64,000 bases of DNA from Xanthostigma xanthostigma. Taxonomy: Eukaryota > Arthropoda > Insecta > Raphidioptera > Raphidiidae. The translations under genes were made by a program, and so were the position numbers. Of this stretch, positions 16,417 to 64,000 are shown in pieces. Numbering within the stretch: the first letter of the stretch is position 1; the number at the start of each line of letters is the position of its first letter. Location: contig OY754465.1 of assembly GCA_963575645.1 (NCBI GenBank), positions 44,418,401 to 44,482,400 of the forward strand, written 5' to 3'. The notes under the pieces were generated by a model, which worked only from the letters and a program-made list of their open reading frames with translations, ran no database searches and had not been told where the DNA came from.

Positions 16417-19400
16417 ATGTTTCGGTTATTAAAAAATACTTTGATGGGGAGAAAACCCGTGTCTAGTGCAGTATACTTATTGTCAAAACGAGCTCAATCT
16501 ATTAGTGAACTTGAACCTCTAGACTGCGGTCCTCCCAAGCATATGGGCTTGGTCTTAGGTATGTACTACGACCATACAGATCCCTTTTCAATTGCTCGAC
16601 TAACCGATAGTGCTGAAAGGTTCAACAATGCTGTTCACGGGAGGCTAATGCAGCTTTTGCAATTATCTGGACCACCTCCGAGAAAAGGAATAGTTCGTTT
16701 ATTTTATGGAGTAGATCCGGAATTCAGTGCCGTAGCAGTTGTTGGCTTGGGAAAAGACTGTGCTGGATTTGATGTCGCCGAAAGAATGGATGAAGGAAAA
16801 GAAAATATTCGTATCGCAACAGCGGCGGCTTGTAGAGCATTGCAAGGTATCAGAGTGAAAAGAATAGCTGTAGAAAGTATGGGTCATACAGAGTCAGCAG
16901 CTGAAGGTGCAGCACTCGGTATTTGGCTTTTTCAAGATTTCAAAAATAAAAAGGATAGAATTTGGGTACCTTATTTAAGTTTACACGAAAGTTGTGATTT
17001 CACTGGCTGGCAGATTGGTTTGCAAAAAGCAGCAGCTCAAAATTTAGCCCGTCAATTAGAGGAGCTTGCTTCAAATATATTAACACCGTCCGTTTTTGCA
17101 CAGACAGCTGTCGAAGTGCTTTGTAAATCAGGAGTGAATGTTGAAGTAAAGGTGAAAGAGTGGGCAGAACAAATGCAAATGAATGGCTTTCTACAGGTAT
17201 CCAAGGGTTCATGTGAGCCGCCAATATTTCTGGAACTAAGCTACTACGGGGCAAGCAACACTGATGAAAGGCCAGTTATCTTAATTGGCAAAGGAATGAC
17301 TTTTAACAGTGGCGGTCTCGAACTGAAGGAATGCAAGGATATGAAATACATGCGTGGCGATATGAGTGGCGCATCCGTAGTCCTAGCGACTATGCGAGCT
17401 ATTGCCAACTTAGGATTGCCAATTAATGTACGCGGCTTGATACCTCTCGCAGAAAATATGCCTGGCTGTTCGTCCATGAAACCTGGCGACATGTTTAAAA
17501 GCATGGGTGGTAAAACCGTTCTCATCCAGTCAACTGATGTTTCAGGACGTATTATGATTGCGGACGCCATCTCATATGCTCAAACCTTTTGGCCAGTATT
17601 TATCCTTGATGTCGGTACTCACACAAAAACGATGAGACAAATTATGGGTCGATCTTCTAGTGCTGTCTGGACAAATTCTGAACGGATGTGGAGATACATA
17701 GAAGCTGCTAGCATGCATACAGGTTCGTTACAGTTGCAAATTCGATCCAAAGACGACTATGTTAATAGCTGGAAGCTTATGACCCACTTTTCATGAAGTG
17801 TTTGATTCACGTAGAAATTTTGACCAGTGGTACAGATAGGATAGATGAACAAGAAAAAATATGTTTGCCTGACTTACTGTGGTACTACAGGTACTGCGCA
17901 TACAAGTAATGCGCCCAAAAATGTATGTCAAAAAAGTGTTTGATTGAAAGAAATCATCTAAGCATGCTTTGATTAATTGGAACATATTATGTAGGTAACC
18001 ATGCCAATGAATAGCAAATATGGTATTTAATACTAGCCATTACCCGCACACCGCAAACGATTTAATACAAAAACAATAATCCGATCAAAATGGAATGTGT
18101 TTCTTTTGTAATTTATAGAAAAATGGCAATATTATAATTTAAGGTACAGTGATGTGCCTATACCATTAAATGTGTCTCCTACTAAAGACTGTCATCTACA
18201 ATGTTATACAAATTTCACAAGTTTAAAGCTTATCAACAAATTCTACGGAATCTCTTATTCATCAGGTATTGTACAACATTAAATTTATCTCTCTACTGTT
18301 AATATGCACGTTGACTTTTTTAAATATACCGAATCTAAAAACGCTAAATCTTAGTAGGAAATCTTAAAATTGAAGACTTAGAACCTCAACCTAAAGGGAC
18401 CATTGGCCACACGGAAAATGAAGATCAGTCAGAAGTTCAAGAAGGTCCAGATTTCCTACTACTGGGCCACTTGTAGAAGGGGTATCTATAAAGGAAAAAA
18501 TCGATTTAGCGTTTTTAGATTCGGCATATTTTAAAAAAGTCAACGTATATATTATTAACAGTAGAGAGATAACTTTAATATTGTACAATACCTGATGGAT
18601 ATAGGAGATTCCGTAGAATATGTTGATAAGCTTTTCCTGTACTGTTGCTTTAAACTTGTGAGATTTGTATAACATTGACGATGACAGCCTTTAGTAGGAG
18701 ACACATTTAATGGTAAAACCACATCGCTGTACCTTAAATTATAATCTTGCCGATATTATTGACTATTTTCTACAAATAACACAAGAAACAGATTTCATTT
18801 TGATCGGATGATTGTTTTTGTATTAAGTCGCGTGCTGTGTGCGGGTAATGGCTAGTATTAAATACGATATTTGCTATTCATTGGCATGGTTACCTACATA
18901 ATATTATGTTCCAGTTAATCAAAGCATGCTTAGATGATTTCTTTCAATAAAACACTTTTTTTGACATAAATATTTGGGCGCATTCTTGTATGCGTAGTAC
19001 CTGCAGTACCACGGTAAGTCAGACAAACATATATTATTTCTTGTTCATCTATCCTATCTGTACCACTGGTCAAAATTTCTACGTGACTCAAACACTTCAT
19101 GAAAAGTGGTACATGAGCTCTTGGGCTATAATTGTTAATTTTTATTTCAGGTGACCGAGTATGGCGTTTTCCACTTTGGGCACATTATGCTAAGGCGGTA
19201 ACCGAGTTTGAAACTGTGGATTTACATACAATAGGAGTGGATTCAGGTACTGGTTGCAAAGTTGCTGCATTTTTGTATCAATTTGTACCCTGCGGTGAAT
19301 GGATGCATGTTGACTCTCAAGGTGTTTATCACGCTAACGATTTTGACGAAGCTTATTTACGACTTGGTATGTCTGGTCGGCCAACGCGTACTTTAATCGA

Positions 19401-30479: not shown

Positions 30480-30913
30480 AGGTCCACTGCACACGAGGCT
30501 GGTTTTGCCGCTAGATTCCTTGCTACATTTGGCTGCAAGGTTTCAAGCGTACTGTGGCGCTAGATTTTTTGATGGCTTTTATGTGTTCGCCTCACACGAT
30601 GCGTGTTTTGAAATTGGCTGTGCGCGTGAAGTGACAGTTCGAATGGTAACAAATTATTGTCTCTGAACAGAACACACACTATGGCGCCATGCTTGTTTGT
30701 GGAAGTTTGTCCGTGTGAAGGTACTGTTTCTGATTGGTTCTTGCTCAAAAGAAGCAGAGAAACAAGCATGAAAAATAGCACCGATTCAAATTTTGAAATC
30801 CAACGCACTCGAGACTGTAGTGACGTCATTTTCATCCTGGTAGTCAGCGTGACAGCCCGCGCAAGTCCCAGCAACGATTCCACCGGCAAAACCAGCCTCG
30901 TTTGCAGCGGCCT
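30480..30913. mobile_element. PIF/Harbinger-like MITE family G, copy 1, TAA target site
   Basis: Left AGGTCCACTGCACACGAGGC and right end in reverse complement AGGCCGCTGCAAACGAGGCT continue as inverted repeats through 'tggttttgccg'. TAA flanks both ends (30477-30479 and 30914-30916). The interior contains 'tctgaacagaacacacactatggcgcc' type sequence shared with the copy at 45441-45852. Reading frames on both strands (30560-30988, 30657-30965) lie wholly inside it and are not genes. Confidence 0.75.
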
Positions 30914-31017
30914 TAAGATATTTTTTATGATCTTTCCGTTCCAACTTCCGAAAAAAGTTTGGTAAATTATAATACTGAACGGACTCATTAAGAAAAATTG
31001 AACATTAAACTTCTTAA

Positions 31018-35200: not shown

Positions 35201-35591
35201 TTAAAATAATAGTTGGGTGACTAAATTACTAAGTGAGCGACTAGAATGCGTTCGGTAATTTTGAAGCAGATATCTTCTTTTGTTTTTACTTTTTATTTTT
35301 TTTCACTTTGAGAGAGACTACAACTTAAAACTCACATTTTCATGAAGATTGAAAACCACCGCTTTTTTTGGTAAAGGGGTATGCGAATTGTCTCGCAGTG
35401 AAACGCGATGTGGCAAAGGTGGAGTTTTTAAAAAAATAATTCCGGGGTGAACGATAAACGGGTATGCGAATTGTAATTCCGGGGTGAACGATAAAGGGGT
35501 ATGCGAATTGTCTCGCAGTGAAACGGGAAGGGCCAATGTGGAGTTTTTAAAAATATAAATCCGGGGTGAACGATAACGGGGTATGCGAATT

Positions 35592-35870: not shown

Positions 35871-36038
35871 TTTTCTCGTCACGCGCAGTCAGTCGCTCAC
35901 TTAGTAATTTAGTCACCCAACTATTATTTTCTCGTCACGCGCAGTCAGTCGCTCACTTAGTAATTTAGTCACCCAACTATTATTTTCTCGTCACGCGCAG
36001 TCAGTCGCTCACTTAGTAATACAGTAACCCAAATTGAC
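35871..36038 (+). repeat. Tandem array, 56-bp unit, three copies
   Basis: Units at 35871, 35927 and 35983 begin TTTTCTCGTCACGCGCAGTC and contain AGTCGCTCACTTAGTAATTT. The first two are identical; the third diverges in its last 15 bp. Recent local duplication. Confidence 0.88.
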
Positions 36039-45440: not shown

Positions 45441-45852
45441 AAGGCCGCTGGAATCACTGCTAGGACTTGTGCTGGCTGGCACACTGGCTGCGAAGATGGA
45501 AATGACATTACTGCGGGCTCGCGGCGTGGTCACAAGAACAATTTCAAAATTAGAATCGGTGTATTTTTCGTGCTTGTTTGTCCTACTTGTTTTCAGCAAT
45601 AACCAATCAGGAAACAGTATCTTGTCACGTGGGCGACATGGACAAACGCTCGCAAATAAACATGGCATCATAATGTGCGTTCTGTTCAGAGACAATAAAT
45701 GCTTGTGCAATGGAACTGTTACGTCTGTTAATGCGCGCGACCAACCCATCTACAAAATACACATATCGTGTGAACACATAACGTCACAGCACGCTTTAAA
45801 CCTAGCAGTCATATCTAGCGGCAAAACCAGCCTCGTGTCCAGCGGTTTCAGA
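45441..45852. mobile_element. PIF/Harbinger-like MITE family G, copy 2
   Basis: AAGGCCGCTG at the left lacks the next 23 bp of the terminal repeat found in the 30480-30913 copy and resumes at 'gaatc.ctgctaggacttg'. The right end 'cggcaaaaccagcctcgtgt' is complete. The interior matches copy 1 ('tctgttcagagacaat', 'catggc.', 'gtgtttgtccatg'-type sequence). Reading frames on either strand here are transposon DNA. Confidence 0.7.
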
Positions 45853-46037
45853 CAGTTGATGATGAACAATTTGTGTTTTAGGTAGATATGTTGACTATAC
45901 TTGAAAAGCGTTCCAATAAACCAAGAATTATAAATCAATTGTAATCTTATAGTGAAACAGTTTTTTTTTCAAATAAAATTTCACGTTAACTAAATTGCTT
46001 TTGTGAGATAAAAGCATTCGTTATATTTTTATTTATT

Positions 46038-55937: not shown

Positions 55938-56073
55938 CAAGTTTTCACTTCTGCCGGCACTCCCGGAGTGCAACCCGTCATTTATTTTTAACCGACGAAA
56001 AACAAAAACGGAGGAGGTTCTCAATTCGACGCGTATATTTTTTTTTTTTTATTTATTTATTTTTTTTTATTTA
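55546..56073. other. No gene seen
   Basis: Begins with an end-like 'gaagtgaaaacttctttag' of MITE family E at 55556. The frame at 55805-56080 runs into poly-T and is not supported. Confidence 0.4.
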
Positions 56074-56400
56074 TGTATGACCACGCATAACTTTTTACAG
56101 AGTAGTCCGATTTTGATAATTATTTTTTTGTTTGAAAGGGTATACCCCGAAGTTGGTCCCATATAAATTTGGTAGAAAAATTCCAACCCTAAGGGTAGGA
56201 AAACAGGGGATGATTGATTGTTCACTCACTGATTATAATGTATGACCACACATAACTTTTTACAGAGGGGTCCAATTTTGATAATTATTTTTTTATTGAA
56301 TAGGGTATACCTCGAGGTTCGTCTCATATAAATTTGGAAAAAAAATTCCTACCCTAAGGGTGGGAAAATAGGGGTGATTTTCACAGATTTTCATGCTGAG
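56074..56400 (+). repeat. Tandem duplication, 166-bp unit, two copies
   Basis: Copies start at 56074 and 56240 with TATGACCAC.CATAACTTTT, then 'ttgataattattttttt', 'gggtatacc.cga.gtt', 'catataaatttgg' and 'ccctaagggt.ggaaaa'. Divergence is about 15% by eye. Noncoding interspersed repeat. Confidence 0.75.
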
Positions 56401-57525: not shown

Positions 57526-60230
57526 TTATTCTTTTAATGCTATATAATCGGGTAAATCTTCTGTTCTTGGCCTTTTAGCAACAACCAATTCAATCGAAGC
57601 ATCTAAATCGTTTGTAAGGCAGTCGTTATGATATCTTTCATTTTTTTTCGTAATCAAAACAACTTCCTTTTTATTGCCAGTATCAATGAAAAACTCACAT
57701 GATGCGGTGTTTTCTTTAGTTGTAGTAGTGTTGGTGATGGGTTTAATGTCTTTTGTCGGAGTATGTTTTTTATGTGGATATGAACAAAAACGTTTTTTGC
57801 ACTCTCCGTTGCGTTCAAACTCTGGACATATAAGGATATGTCGCTTGTCGCACTGAAAATATAAATCAAACAATGATACAAGAGAATTTTAATCACACTT
57901 CTTTTTTTAAACTTTCTTACCTTCCCTGCTAACGGACAATAGCCTTCTAAGAAATTTTTGCAGACTTCTACTTTTTCATTTAATTTCACATGTAAATAGG
58001 GACAGTTCTCTCTACTGCAAAATCCTTCTAAAAAGAATTTACAAGTCGGCATCTTCTCAAGACTAATTAAATGAGAGAGGCAACAGTCTTTTATGTCACA
58101 TTCGCCTTTTAGAAATCTGAAAATATAGAATTACTCCATGATACTATCACTATATTATGTTCATTGGGATGCGAATTTTAGATAATTTGTCGAACACTGA
58201 CGTTTTCGATTCTAACGATGAATACCTACTCGGCGTTGGAAAAAGACTATTTTTATAAATTCCTTTTTCACCCCATTAAGGATAGATTGAAACAAAAAAC
58301 AGAACAAATCTGTGGTTGCTTATTTTTAATGAAGTGTTAATACATTGAATTTAATATTTAACGATTCGTGAGATAGGAATTTTTGACCACCTTACGTTTT
58401 GAAAAATCTTCTTATTGTGTGCCTAGGTCATGAATTGTATATTCCAAGTCGTGTTTTGTCTCTGGGTGTTGACGTCACCCAAAGACAAAATACTGTCATG
58501 GAATTACTCAATGTTACGCAATAACTGATGAATATAAATACGATAATGGTAAATAAAATTTATTTTTCAGAATTGTCTATCCTGAAGACTAATACTAAAC
58601 TTACTTGCTGCAAATTGTAACTTTTTTAGGATCATGCATTCTTTTACAGGTACCGTTTTCTTTTCCTCGACATTTTCCGAAACGATTGAAGAATGGACAC
58701 GCTTGATTATTTTTACGTAATTTATTTGACAATGTATTGATGCTTTTTTGCCGCATTTGACTGTAAAAAAATGAAAAAGATACACGTGTAAATTGTTCGA
58801 AAAAGTAAATTTTAATATCGTCATCTTTACCTCAAAACTCGTTTTGGTGTATTGGAATGACCGGTACTTAATATTCGTGTCCTGTTAATAATTCCTGATG
58901 CCTTGTTTTGAGAATTGGACATACTTCGTATTCTGTTTCCAGTTGAGGGAGTTTTCAACCATTTATATTTTTCAATCGATGATAGTTGTTTTTTGACCAA
59001 TTTATTAGCAGTTGTTCTTCGATCAATTTTGTAATTAATTTTATCGCATGTATTGAAACTTTTAATTTTTTTTATAGTTTTTATTCTTCTATCCAATTTA
59101 AATTCCGAAATTACAGTGTTACTCAACTTTCTTTTAGCCGGTGTCTTAATTAATACTTTTTTTCTTCTATCAATTTTATGAATCGATTTGTTTATTGTTT
59201 TTATATTCGTAGATATCTTTGGTGTCATTAAAAATGCGTTGTGTGTAATTTTCACTAATTTATTAGGTGATAATTTTATAGTAGAGAAATTGTTTGTTAA
59301 TTTTGTGGTTTTTATAATAATTGACGGCGACTTTAAATTTTGTTCCGATAACACCGGCCCACATTTTATCAATTTATGCGGACTCGAATGTACGAACGAT
59401 GATTTTACATTTTGTTTGGACAATTTATGAGCATATTTTATTAGTTTATATGAGCTCAAGTGTGCAATTTGTCTGGGCGACTTATGAGATGAGGACTTAA
59501 TTAATTTATGCGCGGTAGAATGTACAATTTGTGGTTTATTTAGCGATTTCTGTGGACATTTTATTAATTTATGAGGACTTGAATGGATTATTTGTGTTTC
59601 AGAGTTAATTACTGGTACCGAGTTTGTGTTCAGTTTTGATTGTACATAGTCCTTTATATTATTATTATTATGTGTAGTCGATGAGGGAGTTGATGTTTGT
59701 GTAGTTAGCGAATTGAGCATTTTAGGATTTATATGAATGGTAGAATTTTTAACGTCATTACTGTCTAATATAGTGTTGTTTTTTAGAGTTAACTGAGTTT
59801 TGCGTTCAAAATGTGGATTAATATACACTTGTGAACCTTTTATATCATGTACATTTTGTCGATTGTTTTGTTTTAGTGACTGTACACTTTTCTCAAAGTG
59901 AGGATTTATATAGACTTGAGTTTTGAAATGTGGATTAATCAAAACTTTTCTGTTCACGGTTTCACGTTGATTCATAAAATTGTCTGGCATATGACTATTT
60001 TTGTACCAAAGATCATTATCCGGTGGTTTTTGAGTGCACTGATAATAGTTATACAGTGAATTTTCCATATTATTGTTTATCACGGGCACGTTTGGATGAA
60101 AATCTATAAGAAAAATGTACTCGCCTGAAATTAATACACATTTGCTACTAACAATTATTTATATTAACAAAATGTTTTGCTTACTTGAAGGATACGTGTA
60201 CAATAGGGCACTATTCTCAATTTCACTCAT
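57526..60230 (-). CDS. ZC3H3: ZC3H3-type protein with five CCCH zinc fingers
   Basis: ZC3H3 is a nuclear RNA-binding protein needed for export and polyadenylation-linked processing of mRNA. Five exons (60230-60185, 60103-58831, 58760-58605, 58116-57921, 57852-57526) join in frame to 665 residues. Residues 1-440 are low-complexity and basic, with INPHF motifs at 71-75, 81-85 and 110-114 (INPKM at 140), several HKLIK-type repeats at about 190-300, and IDRR/LDRR repeats at about 325-390. The finger array is C461-H482 (CX8CX7CX3H), C490-H507 (CX7CX4CX3H), C517-H534 (CX7CX4CX3H), C544-H562 (CX7CX5CX3H) and C566-H584 (CX8CX4CX3H). Spacing and linkers (KMP.C, VEVC..FL.GYCP) match ZC3H3, not tristetraprolin-like proteins. 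The tail 585-665 is unconserved. Finger 4 is split by intron 4 (GK|CDKRH). It is divergent from RpL14. Confidence 0.9.
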
Positions 60231-60706
60231 AATAATTGTAAATTATGCTTTTGTAATAATAAAATCGATGAATTCACAAATATTTGACAGAAAACTATCA
60301 AACGTTAATCAGACCAATTTTTTTAGAGTGCCTTCATGAATTTACACATGACATTGACAAGTCTTGCCATACTTTTGTAGTGTTCTCTGGATAGATGGTA
60401 GCAGAGATACATACGCTGGTAGCACGAGATATTTAAAGATATTTTTATTTGAATATTATGTTTTTTAATTAATATTTTCTAACTATTTATACATGTGATT
60501 GTTTATAAATTTTACCGTTTATTATTTAAATATACTATTAGATTTTTAAAAATCATAACATTTTATAATACAATATTTTAGACTTTAGTTATTTGACGTT
60601 GTATTTACATCCGTGTGGCGCTGCGCAGTGGCGCTAGTTTCAGCTGGGGTAGCCATATTTCTTTTAGTCAGTTTTCGTGCTACTCATCGGAATATAGAAC
60701 GTCGCA
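60231..60706. promoter_or_regulatory. Divergent promoter region, ZC3H3 (-) and RpL14 (+)
   Basis: Start codons are 476 bp apart. On the RpL14 side, 'tattTCTTTTagtc' gives a pyrimidine-rich TCT-type initiator (C at 60661), as used by ribosomal protein genes in flies, and would make a 46-nt 5' UTR. The short GC-rich repeat 'tggcgctgcgcagtggcgct' lies 40 bp upstream. No TATA box is seen on either side. Confidence 0.5.
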
Positions 60707-62317
60707 ATGGTATGAAATATTGTAATTATAAAATAAATTTTAAGTATTCACTTTCATTAAAATTAATAGTTTTGAATCTTTAACGATTGAAAATATTATG
60801 CTGAGTTTAGTTTATTTGTGGCAATTACAATGAAACACGTTCACGCAGGTTTTGCGACCACGTGTTTCGGCATACGGTCTGCAAGATTATTTAATTCTGT
60901 TTCTGTAGTGTTTATTTTAATTTCCAGACGTTCACGAGATTTGTAGAAACTGGCCGCGTTGCCCTCATAGCAGATAGCCAAGACAAAGACAATGGCAAAC
61001 GTGTCGCAATTGTTGATATTATTAACCAAGGAATGGTAAGTGGAAGTGTATTTAAAATTGACTTACGCCTTAAATTAATATCTTATATTGAAAGATAAGT
61101 AGATTGTAGTGGGATTCTGGGGTTTACGGTTTATCCGGATTTGTTGTATTGAGAAGGAACCTGCCTGCACAACCATAATTATTATTATCAAATAGTTTGT
61201 ACTGACACTTAGTAAACTTAAAGCTGTGTCCTGACTATACCAATCGGCAAAGTTGCACTAGTATGGACGTGACGTCGGCTTCTTTATCAGGCAAATTCGT
61301 TGCCGATGACAAGTCAGAATACAGCTTAAGAACTTATGATAAAGGTTCTGAACTCGCACCTTTTTCCCCAAAACTTTCATAATATAAGGAATGGACGAGA
61401 TCGATAACGATGTAAAATGCTTATCACATCACATGTGGTACATTATACATAGCCCATATTAAAAAGTAATCATGATTATATTATTTCAAATCAGATAACC
61501 GTGTAATAATGTGATGATACATATTTCTTGATAGGAATTGCCGGCTGACAAATGTTGATGCCAATTGAATTCTGATTTTATGACTTTAAATCCTAGGATA
61601 ATTACTTTAGAGTTGAAAGTTGCCTAATCGTGTTGTTGATTCTAGGTTGTAGTGGACGGACCAGAAACTGGTGTGACACGACGACAAATCCGTCTTAACC
61701 AGATACATTTAACAAAGTTCCGTATTAAATTTCCATTCACTGCATCGACCAGAGTTGTTCGAAAAGCGTGGAAAGATGCAAAAGTTGATGAGAAATGGGC
61801 CGAGAGTGTATGGGCTAAGAAAATTGAAGCCAAAAACAAGGTAAATATTTCAAATTTCACCTGTAGACTTGATGAAATATTTTTATACAAATTGTAGTTG
61901 AACCACAGTATAGAACCACATTCAGAGCAATTGAACACAGTTTTTGTGATGATACAATTTCATTGATAGGAATTGCCGTCTGATTTCTTTGATGCCATAA
62001 TTTATTCTGAAAAATTGTGTTCCCTTTCATAAAATATTTCAAAGGCATGCAAAAAATACGATTATGAACGTAATTGATTATTGAAATAAAATTTTCAGCG
62101 CTTGGAAATGGGAGATTTCGACAGATTCAAGCTGAGAAAAGCACGCCAACGTAGAAATAAAGCCCGTAGCTTTACATTCTTCCGAATTAAGAAGAAGAAC
62201 GCACGTAGCGGTAATCTTTTTGGAAAGAAAACTGCCACGAAAGGTGGAGACAAACCGAAACCGCCAAAAGCGAGCAAGAAAGCAGCAGCAGCGCCAGCGG
62301 CTGCGCCTAAAAAGTAA
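60707..62317 (+). CDS. RpL14: Ribosomal protein L14 (eL14)
   Basis: A large-subunit cytosolic ribosomal protein. Four exons (60707-60709, 60928-61035, 61646-61840, 62099-62317) join to 174 residues. Exon 1 contains only the ATG, which is common in insect ribosomal protein genes. The protein has the eL14 SH3-like N-terminal fold (RFVETGRVALIAD, KRVAIVDIINQGMVVVDGP), the core LNQIHLTKFRIKFPFTASTR, VVRKAWKDAKVDEKWAES, DFDRFKLRKARQRRNKA, and a Lys/Ala-rich tail (KASKKAAAAPAAAPKK) that binds rRNA at the surface. It is longer at the C-terminus than Drosophila RpL14. Introns 2 and 3 each carry a C/D-box snoRNA candidate. The divergent neighbour is ZC3H3. AATAAA is at 62333. Confidence 0.95.
61221..61327. 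mobile_element. 107-bp MITE in RpL14 intron 2
   Basis: 'aagctgtgtcctgact' with 'accaatcggcaaagttgc' at the left and 'gcaaattcgttgccgatgac' with 'agtcagaatacagctt' at the right are imperfect inverted repeats. Small, noncoding. Confidence 0.55.
61508..61580 (+). ncRNA. C/D-box snoRNA candidate 1, in RpL14 intron 2
   Basis: Boxes in order: C GTGATGA (61511-61517), D' CTGA (61545-61548), C' TTGATGC (about 61555-61561), D CTGA (61572-61575). The spacing gives a snoRNA of about 70 nt located 70 bp before exon 3, the usual distance for intron-encoded snoRNAs. The D' guide (TTGATAGGAATTGCCG) is shared with candidate 2. Flanking bases pair only weakly. The likely job is to guide 2'-O-methylation of rRNA; the target is not identified. 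Confidence 0.65.
61941..62016 (+). ncRNA. C/D-box snoRNA candidate 2, in RpL14 intron 3
   Basis: Boxes: C GTGATGA (61946-61952), D' CTGA (61980-61983), C' TTGATGC (61989-61995), D CTGA (62007-62010). The flanks CAGTTTTT and AAAAATTG can form a terminal stem. The D' guide matches candidate 1 while the D guide differs (ccataatttatt against ccaattgaatt), so this is a diverged duplicate of the same snoRNA. It ends 80-90 bp before exon 4. Confidence 0.72.
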
Positions 62318-62332
62318 TATATTTTTTATTTG

Positions 62333-62338
62333 AATAAA
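62333..62338 (+). terminator. Poly(A) signal of RpL14
   Basis: AATAAA lies 16 bp after the stop codon, giving the very short 3' UTR typical of ribosomal protein mRNAs. Confidence 0.75.
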
Positions 62339-62746
62339 TATATATAAAAAAGTTTTTTCGTTGATTTTTTTATCACTAGCGACGACCAGATACAAAATAA
62401 TCAACTGTCTTAGAACTTTATTATTTTATTTTTGTCTTTCAAAATTTATTTTAAAAATATGGTTTATCGAAAGTTAAACGAGAAAAAAGAAGCATTGATA
62501 TTTTTTTAATTGCACTAATGGTTTGTTTTCTTCACTGGTAATTTTTTTATGGCAGTACTAAAAATTAATTTAGGGCTCATAAATTTGAACAGAAGAACAT
62601 CTGTGTAGTAGATATGCAATTATGTGAATTTTATACCTTCGTTTCACAAATTTGCCAATATGCAAGTACAATTTTACATAATAGTTTTGAAAAACCTTCA
62701 AGCTTTTGAAGTTTAACAAAAGTAAATAACAAATCGGAATCTGTTA

Positions 62747-63327
62747 GGCCTGTTTCACACATACACGATAACCATCTAAACGGCATCATTTAAACAGTGC
62801 CGTTCCATTGTGTTCACTTTTCACACATTACCGCTTAGTTTTATGGTGATTATGGATCGATAGCATTGGTGATATACAGACGCTTGAAAAGGAAAAGAAG
62901 AAACAGAATTATGTTGGTTCATCCTAAAAATATTATGGGAAGGCAAAAGTTTGGAGCATTTTTTACACTTTTTAAACAGCTTAGAGAAAGCGCAAACAAG
63001 TTTTTCAACCATTTCAGGATATGAGTATCCAGTTCGTTACTAGTATAGCCACTTACAAAATAATACTTTATGCCCATGTAAAAAAGCAAGAAAAGTAAGT
63101 AAATATGGCAAGTTTGAAAGCTTCCAAGTTATTCAGTACTCGACTGGACAGTTCGCGCTATTTAAACAGTAACTGGAGCCGTGAAATCCAGTGAGAATTA
63201 TCGGTGACGTCACGGTAAAGATTTGTCGCATACGTTGTTCGGATGCGTATGAAAGCACTCATAATACTTTGCGTCCCTTCGCAGTTTAAATGGTGCTGTT
63301 TGGATGGTCACCGTGTATAAAATGGGC
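62747..63327. mobile_element. Harbinger-like MITE, about 580 bp
   Basis: GGCCTGTTTCACACATACAC with 'gataaccatctaaacggca' and 'catttaaac' at the left corresponds to the inverted right end ('gtttaaatggtgctgtttgg', 'atggtcaccgtgtataaaat', 'gggc'). TTA precedes and TTTA follows the element. The GGCC/GTTTCACAC ends resemble the other TTA-flanked elements of the window. Confidence 0.6.
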
Positions 63328-64000
63328 TTTAATATATATTTTCGAAAAGAGCTGGGTTTTAAATTTTAAAAATGACGTAAGAAGTATTCTGAAATCCCTT
63401 TTATCCTTTCCTAACTTATATTTAACAAAATGATCGGTGACGATTATAAAACACGTCAAAGGTAAGTGCTGGTTTATTAAATATCTTATTTCAAATAATT
63501 GAATATAGTACCTTTATCATCAAACCAAAGTTTTTCTCGCTGCTTCGATCTTGTTGATATCATTTTAATCGGAATCATTTGAGTTTGGGCTTTAACGGGT
63601 ACAGAAAAATCAGACCTGAGTCAATTACTAAAAAATGTATTCGAATACAAAATACCTATTGCAGCCAAAAAGTTTTCGCCAACAATAAGAAATCATTTTG
63701 TAAAAATTCAGTCAAGTGAAAAAAAAGATGTTAAAAACGAAACTTAACTGTCAAAATATTTGCAAAAGTTTTAATTGATTCTGTATGTGCGTTTTTTTAA
63801 CTATTATTTTAAATTTTTGTTCCAATGACTAAATCAAAAATGGCCAATAGGAGGCCTGCGGAGAGCATGCGGCCGGCTGGGAGTCATGTTTGAGCTGGCG
63901 AAGCTAGGTCAAATGAACATTTGTTGTACATATTACCACCAAAAGAAAATTACGCGATAAGTCGTTCATATATATTTTTAAATTATAGCTAAGAGAAATT
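63328..64000. other. No gene seen
   Basis: AT-rich sequence to the window end. No exon or repeat boundary can be supported. Confidence 0.45.

Follow-up and report, generated by a model that had tools for sequence, protein, structure and literature searches.

A pair of putative intronic box C/D snoRNAs in the RpL14 gene of Xanthostigma xanthostigma with a D' guide to the probable Um578/Um627 site of 18S rRNA

Rfam clan CL00057 includes the box C/D snoRNA families snoR77Y of Arabidopsis (RF01178), snR77 of yeast (RF01181) and SNORD65 of human (RF00571), the last of which we take to be the same as HBII-135. According to excerpts of the respective papers, these snoRNAs share one target: a single table row assigns snoR77Y to Um580, HBII-135 to Um627 and snR77 to Um578, that is, to one uridine of the 18S rRNA (PMC3511168), and the same row, with CD21 of Dictyostelium (Um571) added, is found in PMC8817022. 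The available part of PMC11542601 also lists human Um627 in a row with yeast Um578 and numbers the Arabidopsis site 582. In human, duplicated C/D snoRNAs usually occupy separate introns within a single host gene, as stated in a passage of PMC8178906. For insects, an excerpt of PMC4028297 reports that RpL14 of Drosophila melanogaster has two intronic snoRNAs, and a passage of PMC13228274 likewise mentions RpL14 among snoRNA host genes; the likeness of the two fly snoRNAs to those described here is one of host gene and intronic location. Position 627 lies outside the human-only 18S stretches given in the same part of PMC13228274 (99-436, 644-867 and 1383-1668), which hints, though weakly, at a shared mark in flies.

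Here, a stretch of 64,000 nucleotides of the X. xanthostigma genome (GCA_963575645.1, contig OY754465.1, positions 44,418,401 to 44,482,400), referred to as the window, was analysed. The host gene of both snoRNAs is RpL14, whose spliced translation of 174 amino acids matches the Pfam family Ribosomal_L14e (PF01929, E 9.1e-28). Its best matches in the PDB are the L14 chains of 6xu6 (E 1.9e-39) and 4v6w (E 1.7e-39), the latter presumably a Drosophila 80S ribosome as well. 6XU6 is described as a Drosophila 80S ribosome in an excerpt of PMC13228274. The gene contains three introns, all with GT..AG ends. Intron 1 holds a hairpin at positions 60832-60868, in which a 3x3 internal loop lies between helices of 9-10 bp and 4 bp (z -2.37 for the fold of 60822-60878); no match to Rfam was obtained for this intron up to an E value of 1, and the hairpin could be a chance structure or an unrecognised structured RNA. 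Elsewhere in the window, an open reading frame with 459 uninterrupted codons (16417-17796, plus strand) encodes an M17 leucyl aminopeptidase-like protein (Pfam PF00883, E 6.2e-75), and its lack of introns suggests that it is a retrocopy. Two short open reading frames (30560-30988, minus strand, and 45469-45885, plus strand) share, by eye, the pattern NQS...GQT..NKHG.I.CVLFRDN and are perhaps copies of a dispersed repeat, and tandem arrays are present at 35372-35591 (unit of 119 bp), 35871-36032 (56 bp) and 56073-56379 (165 bp).

A sequence-only reading of the window had proposed that introns 2 and 3 of RpL14 each contain a C, D', C' and D box in this order, and this was confirmed by a motif scan (Table 1). 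Both copies carry a box C of the form RUGAUGA, CUGA as D' and D boxes and a C' box, with correct order and spacing, and the small indels between the copies cancel out, so that both measure 65 nt from C to D. A strict C-D'-C'-D pattern, which was composed with both elements already known, yielded two matches on both strands of the 64-kb window, namely the two copies, and none in 200 dinucleotide shuffles of the window. The pair of elements is real and probably functional, and its snoRNAs are of a known type.

Table 1. Features of the RpL14 gene and its two intronic snoRNA elements (positions in the window)
Feature	Position	Strand	Basis or remark
RpL14 (eL14) coding region	60707..62317	+	exons 60707-60709, 60928-61035, 61646-61840, 62099-62317
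RpL14 intron 2, 610 nt, holds copy 1	61036..61645	+	GT..AG ends
Copy 1 snoRNA element from C to D, 65 nt	61511..61575	+	motif scan, Rfam
Copy 1 box C (GTGATGA)	61511-61517	+	motif scan
Copy 1 D' guide GGAATTGCCG, positions 2-11 before D'	61534..61543	+	pairs with 18S CGGUAAUUCC
Copy 1 box D' (CTGA)	61545..61548	+	motif scan
Copy 1 box C' (TTGATGC)	61555..61561	+	motif scan
Copy 1 box D (CTGA)	61572..61575	+	motif scan
RpL14 intron 3, 258 nt, holds copy 2	61841..62098	+	GT..AG ends
Copy 2 terminal stem, 5' arm	61933..61945	+	13 pairs in the structure computed for 61931-62027 (z -2.94)
Copy 2 snoRNA element from C to D, 65 nt	61946..62010	+	motif scan, Rfam
Copy 2 box C	61946-61952	+	motif scan
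Copy 2 D' guide GGAATTGCCG, positions 2-11 before D'	61969..61978	+	pairs with 18S CGGUAAUUCC
Copy 2 box D' (CTGA)	61980..61983	+	motif scan
Copy 2 box C' (TTGATGC)	61989..61995	+	sequence reading; set opposite copy 1 C' by the intron alignment
Copy 2 box D (CTGA)	62007..62010	+	motif scan
Copy 2 terminal stem, 3' arm	62011..62022	+	fold also pairs 62010, last base of box D

An Rfam search over positions 58000-64000 with E values up to 5 gave 18 matches, a list from which one lower-scoring, overlapping match of the same clan was omitted. The top family for both copies was snoR77Y, with the whole model covered (copy 2: 36.0 bits, E 0.0004; copy 1: 32.7 bits, E 0.0027); both scores are below the gathering score of 52 for RF01178, and at gathering thresholds no family matched in the whole window. 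Other C/D families were weaker, the nearest being SNORD49 with an E value of 0.0074 for copy 1. The match of copy 2 is 79 nt long, compared to 85 for the snoR77Y model. Like the RpL14 copies, snoR77Y has a GGAAUU-CCG guide located one base before a CUGA D' box: its consensus reads GGAAUUACCG, one base and CUGA, and the copies read GGAATTGCCG, G or T, and CTGA. Letter-by-letter comparison was confined to snoR77Y, SNORD65 and snR77 both being likened to the pair by clan and site. A full-text literature search combining guide forms with 'snoRNA' found neither GGAATTGCCG nor GGAAUUGCCG in the papers listed, and none of the insect snoRNA matches listed was recognised as dealing with the snoRNA described here. 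With good confidence, we regard both elements as intron-encoded box C/D snoRNAs of the SNORD65 (HBII-135)/snR77/snoR77Y type, which have been duplicated within one host gene and whose D' guide would be directed to the Um578/Um627 site.

Seven GTDB contigs (L121-L127) from bacterial assemblies served as a sample of eukaryotic rDNA; eukaryotic rDNA contaminates these records, which are named as bacteria, none of them is a known insect, and several hold partial rDNA. Rfam detected SSU rRNA in 7/7 contigs, although in L126 the match is confined to a short piece for which the microsporidial model fits best. The sequence CGGTAATTCC is present in all seven, a count to be read with the fact that the pattern that fetched the contigs includes CGGTAATTCC. 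In all six 18S genes left when L126 is excluded, positions 2-11 of the D' guide form 10/10 pairs with CGGUAAUUCC, with a single G-U pair at position 5, and position 1 of copy 2 can add a U-G pair to this duplex. The 18S gene of L125 is 1800 nt long and the site starts at 575, so the fifth guide position falls on the conserved U578, which is how the known mark is numbered in yeast. To our knowledge, the 530 loop of the 18S rRNA, in which this site lies, is universal. In line with this, a eukaryotic V4 primer, matched in 170 papers by a literature search, has the ten letters of the site at its end.

It is the register of this pairing that sets the two copies apart. At least nine of ten pairs to the 18S site in the D+5 register were found for 2/388 CTGA sites on both strands of the window, which are the D' boxes of the two copies, and 0.006 perfect register matches are expected from base composition. 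Pairing strength alone is ordinary, being equalled somewhere in four rRNA sequences by 38/300 random window 20-mers and 39/300 shuffles, and half of the six scanned 18S genes, three in number, offer the guide a second, weaker match of 10-11 pairs, TGGTAATTCT. Along the 18S sequence of L125, 5/1790 positions draw at least two guides that precede CTGA. Because the register evidence and the Rfam match come together, the 18S assignment is likely. The conserved TTGATA, the six bases upstream of the ten-nucleotide guide, is left unaccounted for by 18S pairing. An accessory pairing of TTGATAGG to CCTATCAA, the latter present in 4/6 eukaryotic 18S genes, was dropped, as 23% of 2000 random window 16-mers reach a run of at least eight in the 18S sequence of L125. 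The guides before the D boxes were rejected as well, as even their best rRNA matches are at chance level (119/300 random window 20-mers are as good for copy 1 and 298/300 for copy 2).

The local alignment between introns 2 and 3 scored 76, compared to a maximum of 49 in 200 shuffles, and spans the snoRNA body only. Over 60 nt of ungapped flank, the copies are identical at 17/60 and 20/60 positions, which is approximately chance for AT-rich sequence. As the sequence-only reading had stated, the 16-mer TTGATAGGAATTGCCG before D' is the same in both copies; position 1, between the 16-mer and the box, holds a G in the first copy and a T in the second. The earlier view, in which a box C/D snoRNA was duplicated and its copies share a conserved D' guide, is supported. 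The stretch before D, which had been described as diverged, is so in part, but 8/11 letters match with a one-base gap in this AT-rich sequence. Selection had been claimed for the D' guide; since the copies agree in guide and boxes but are alike in their flanks only to an extent close to chance, selection on both guide and boxes can reasonably be inferred, from two copies rather than from a phylogenetic test. The route of copying, be it recombination or insertion, leaves no readable trace in the remaining sequence. To look for a third copy, a sequence model was built from copies 1 and 2. It recovers just these two in the window; a further 12 matches are partial (E 0.0054 to 0.026) and lie in viral contigs that were chosen for the 16-mer itself. 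No full-length relative was found when the viral-contig loci from two of three pattern scans were searched with this model, and one 18S pattern scanned in viral contigs gave no match. Apart from the G-U pair described below, the RpL14 pair is an ordinary within-host-gene duplication, as in human C/D families.

The copies differ in the terminal stem, the element by which boxes C and D are brought together. The good stem ascribed to copy 2 was borne out: it is 12-13 bp long, and its arm duplex of -12.9 kcal/mol is equalled by 0.2% of 2000 random arm pairs. The stem of copy 1 reaches -1.3 kcal/mol, and 75% of 2000 random arm pairs are as good or better; likewise, the fold of copy 1 (z 1.03) is no better than shuffles, compared to z -2.94 for copy 2. 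It is therefore conceivable, though we think it rather unlikely, that copy 2 alone is functional and that copy 1 is a decaying duplicate. However, copy 1 has lost none of its four boxes, its 16-nt guide stretch is identical to that of copy 2, and some C/D snoRNAs do without a strong terminal stem. Moreover, the 3' splice site lies 70 nt past the end of the D box in copy 1 and 88 nt past it in copy 2, and spacings near these values are favourable for vertebrate intronic C/D snoRNAs.

As far as can be judged from the sequence, the two snoRNAs are unusual in a single respect, namely the G-U pair at the nucleotide that would be methylated. The base opposite the target uridine is G in copies 1 and 2, whereas the snoR77Y consensus, on which alone a Watson-Crick A-U pair is expected at the methylated uridine, has A at this guide position 5. 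A G-U pair at the catalytic position may be poorly tolerated; the computed duplex energy with the U target, however, is -15.6 kcal/mol for both G and A at position 5. The passages of a paper on archaea are silent on whether fibrillarin accepts G-U there. We tentatively suggest, while regarding it as doubtful, that a natural duplicated lineage has fixed G-U at the methylated nucleotide of an 18S site that is deeply conserved; either fibrillarin would work via the wobble, with two copies perhaps offsetting a lower efficiency, or the ancient mark of the decoding region would have been lost or moved while the guide was kept.

The sequence-only reading had taken the Watson-Crick complement of the guide and hence predicted a C within CGGCAATTCC as the target; this is not supported, as the D'+5 nucleotide at CGGUAAUUCC is a U that faces the guide G. 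A related alternative, which we consider improbable, is that the pair descends from a Um578 guide and that the G at position 5 marks a retargeted or orphaned snoRNA directed to a C of a different RNA that contains CGGCAAUUCC. A G-C pair would be fully Watson-Crick, and a C in place of the U in the target strengthens the duplex by 2 kcal/mol (-17.6 vs -15.6 kcal/mol). The G is also present in both copies, which suggests that it predates the duplication or was spread by conversion. However, the guide still pairs at 10/10 positions with the 18S site, and the site CGGCAATTCC, for which a search had been proposed, occurs on either strand in 0/7 of the eukaryotic rDNA contigs, a search that covers rRNA in partly incomplete contigs of which none is a known insect.

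Little probability is also given to the idea that the guide binds the 530 loop of the 18S rRNA without methylating it, due to the G-U at the catalytic position, and acts as a pairing or folding helper: the complementarity of ten pairs persists in both copies despite the wobble, but the duplex energy is equal for G and A, and the wobble may be acceptable to fibrillarin. Chance motifs in AT-rich introns are a negligible explanation, for although boxes are short and common, as the 388 CTGA sites illustrate, not one such element arose in 200 shuffles, the intron alignment exceeds its null maximum (76 vs 49) and the Rfam match has the guide in register.

Returning to the pair as SNORD65/snR77/snoR77Y-type guides, each snoRNA would be freed from its RpL14 intron after splicing and, as expected for its class, be bound by the C/D core proteins including fibrillarin. 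The D' guide would then pair with the CGGUAAUUCC stretch of the 18S 530 loop, and the uridine that corresponds to Um578 in yeast and Um627 in human would receive a 2'-O-methyl group; both copies would thus be expressed, assemble into RNPs and take part in this methylation. In this way, a snoRNA of unassigned target gains a probable identity together with a precise prediction, namely Um at the equivalent of yeast 578 and human 627, and the pair offers a natural test of whether the base pair at the methylation site must be Watson-Crick.
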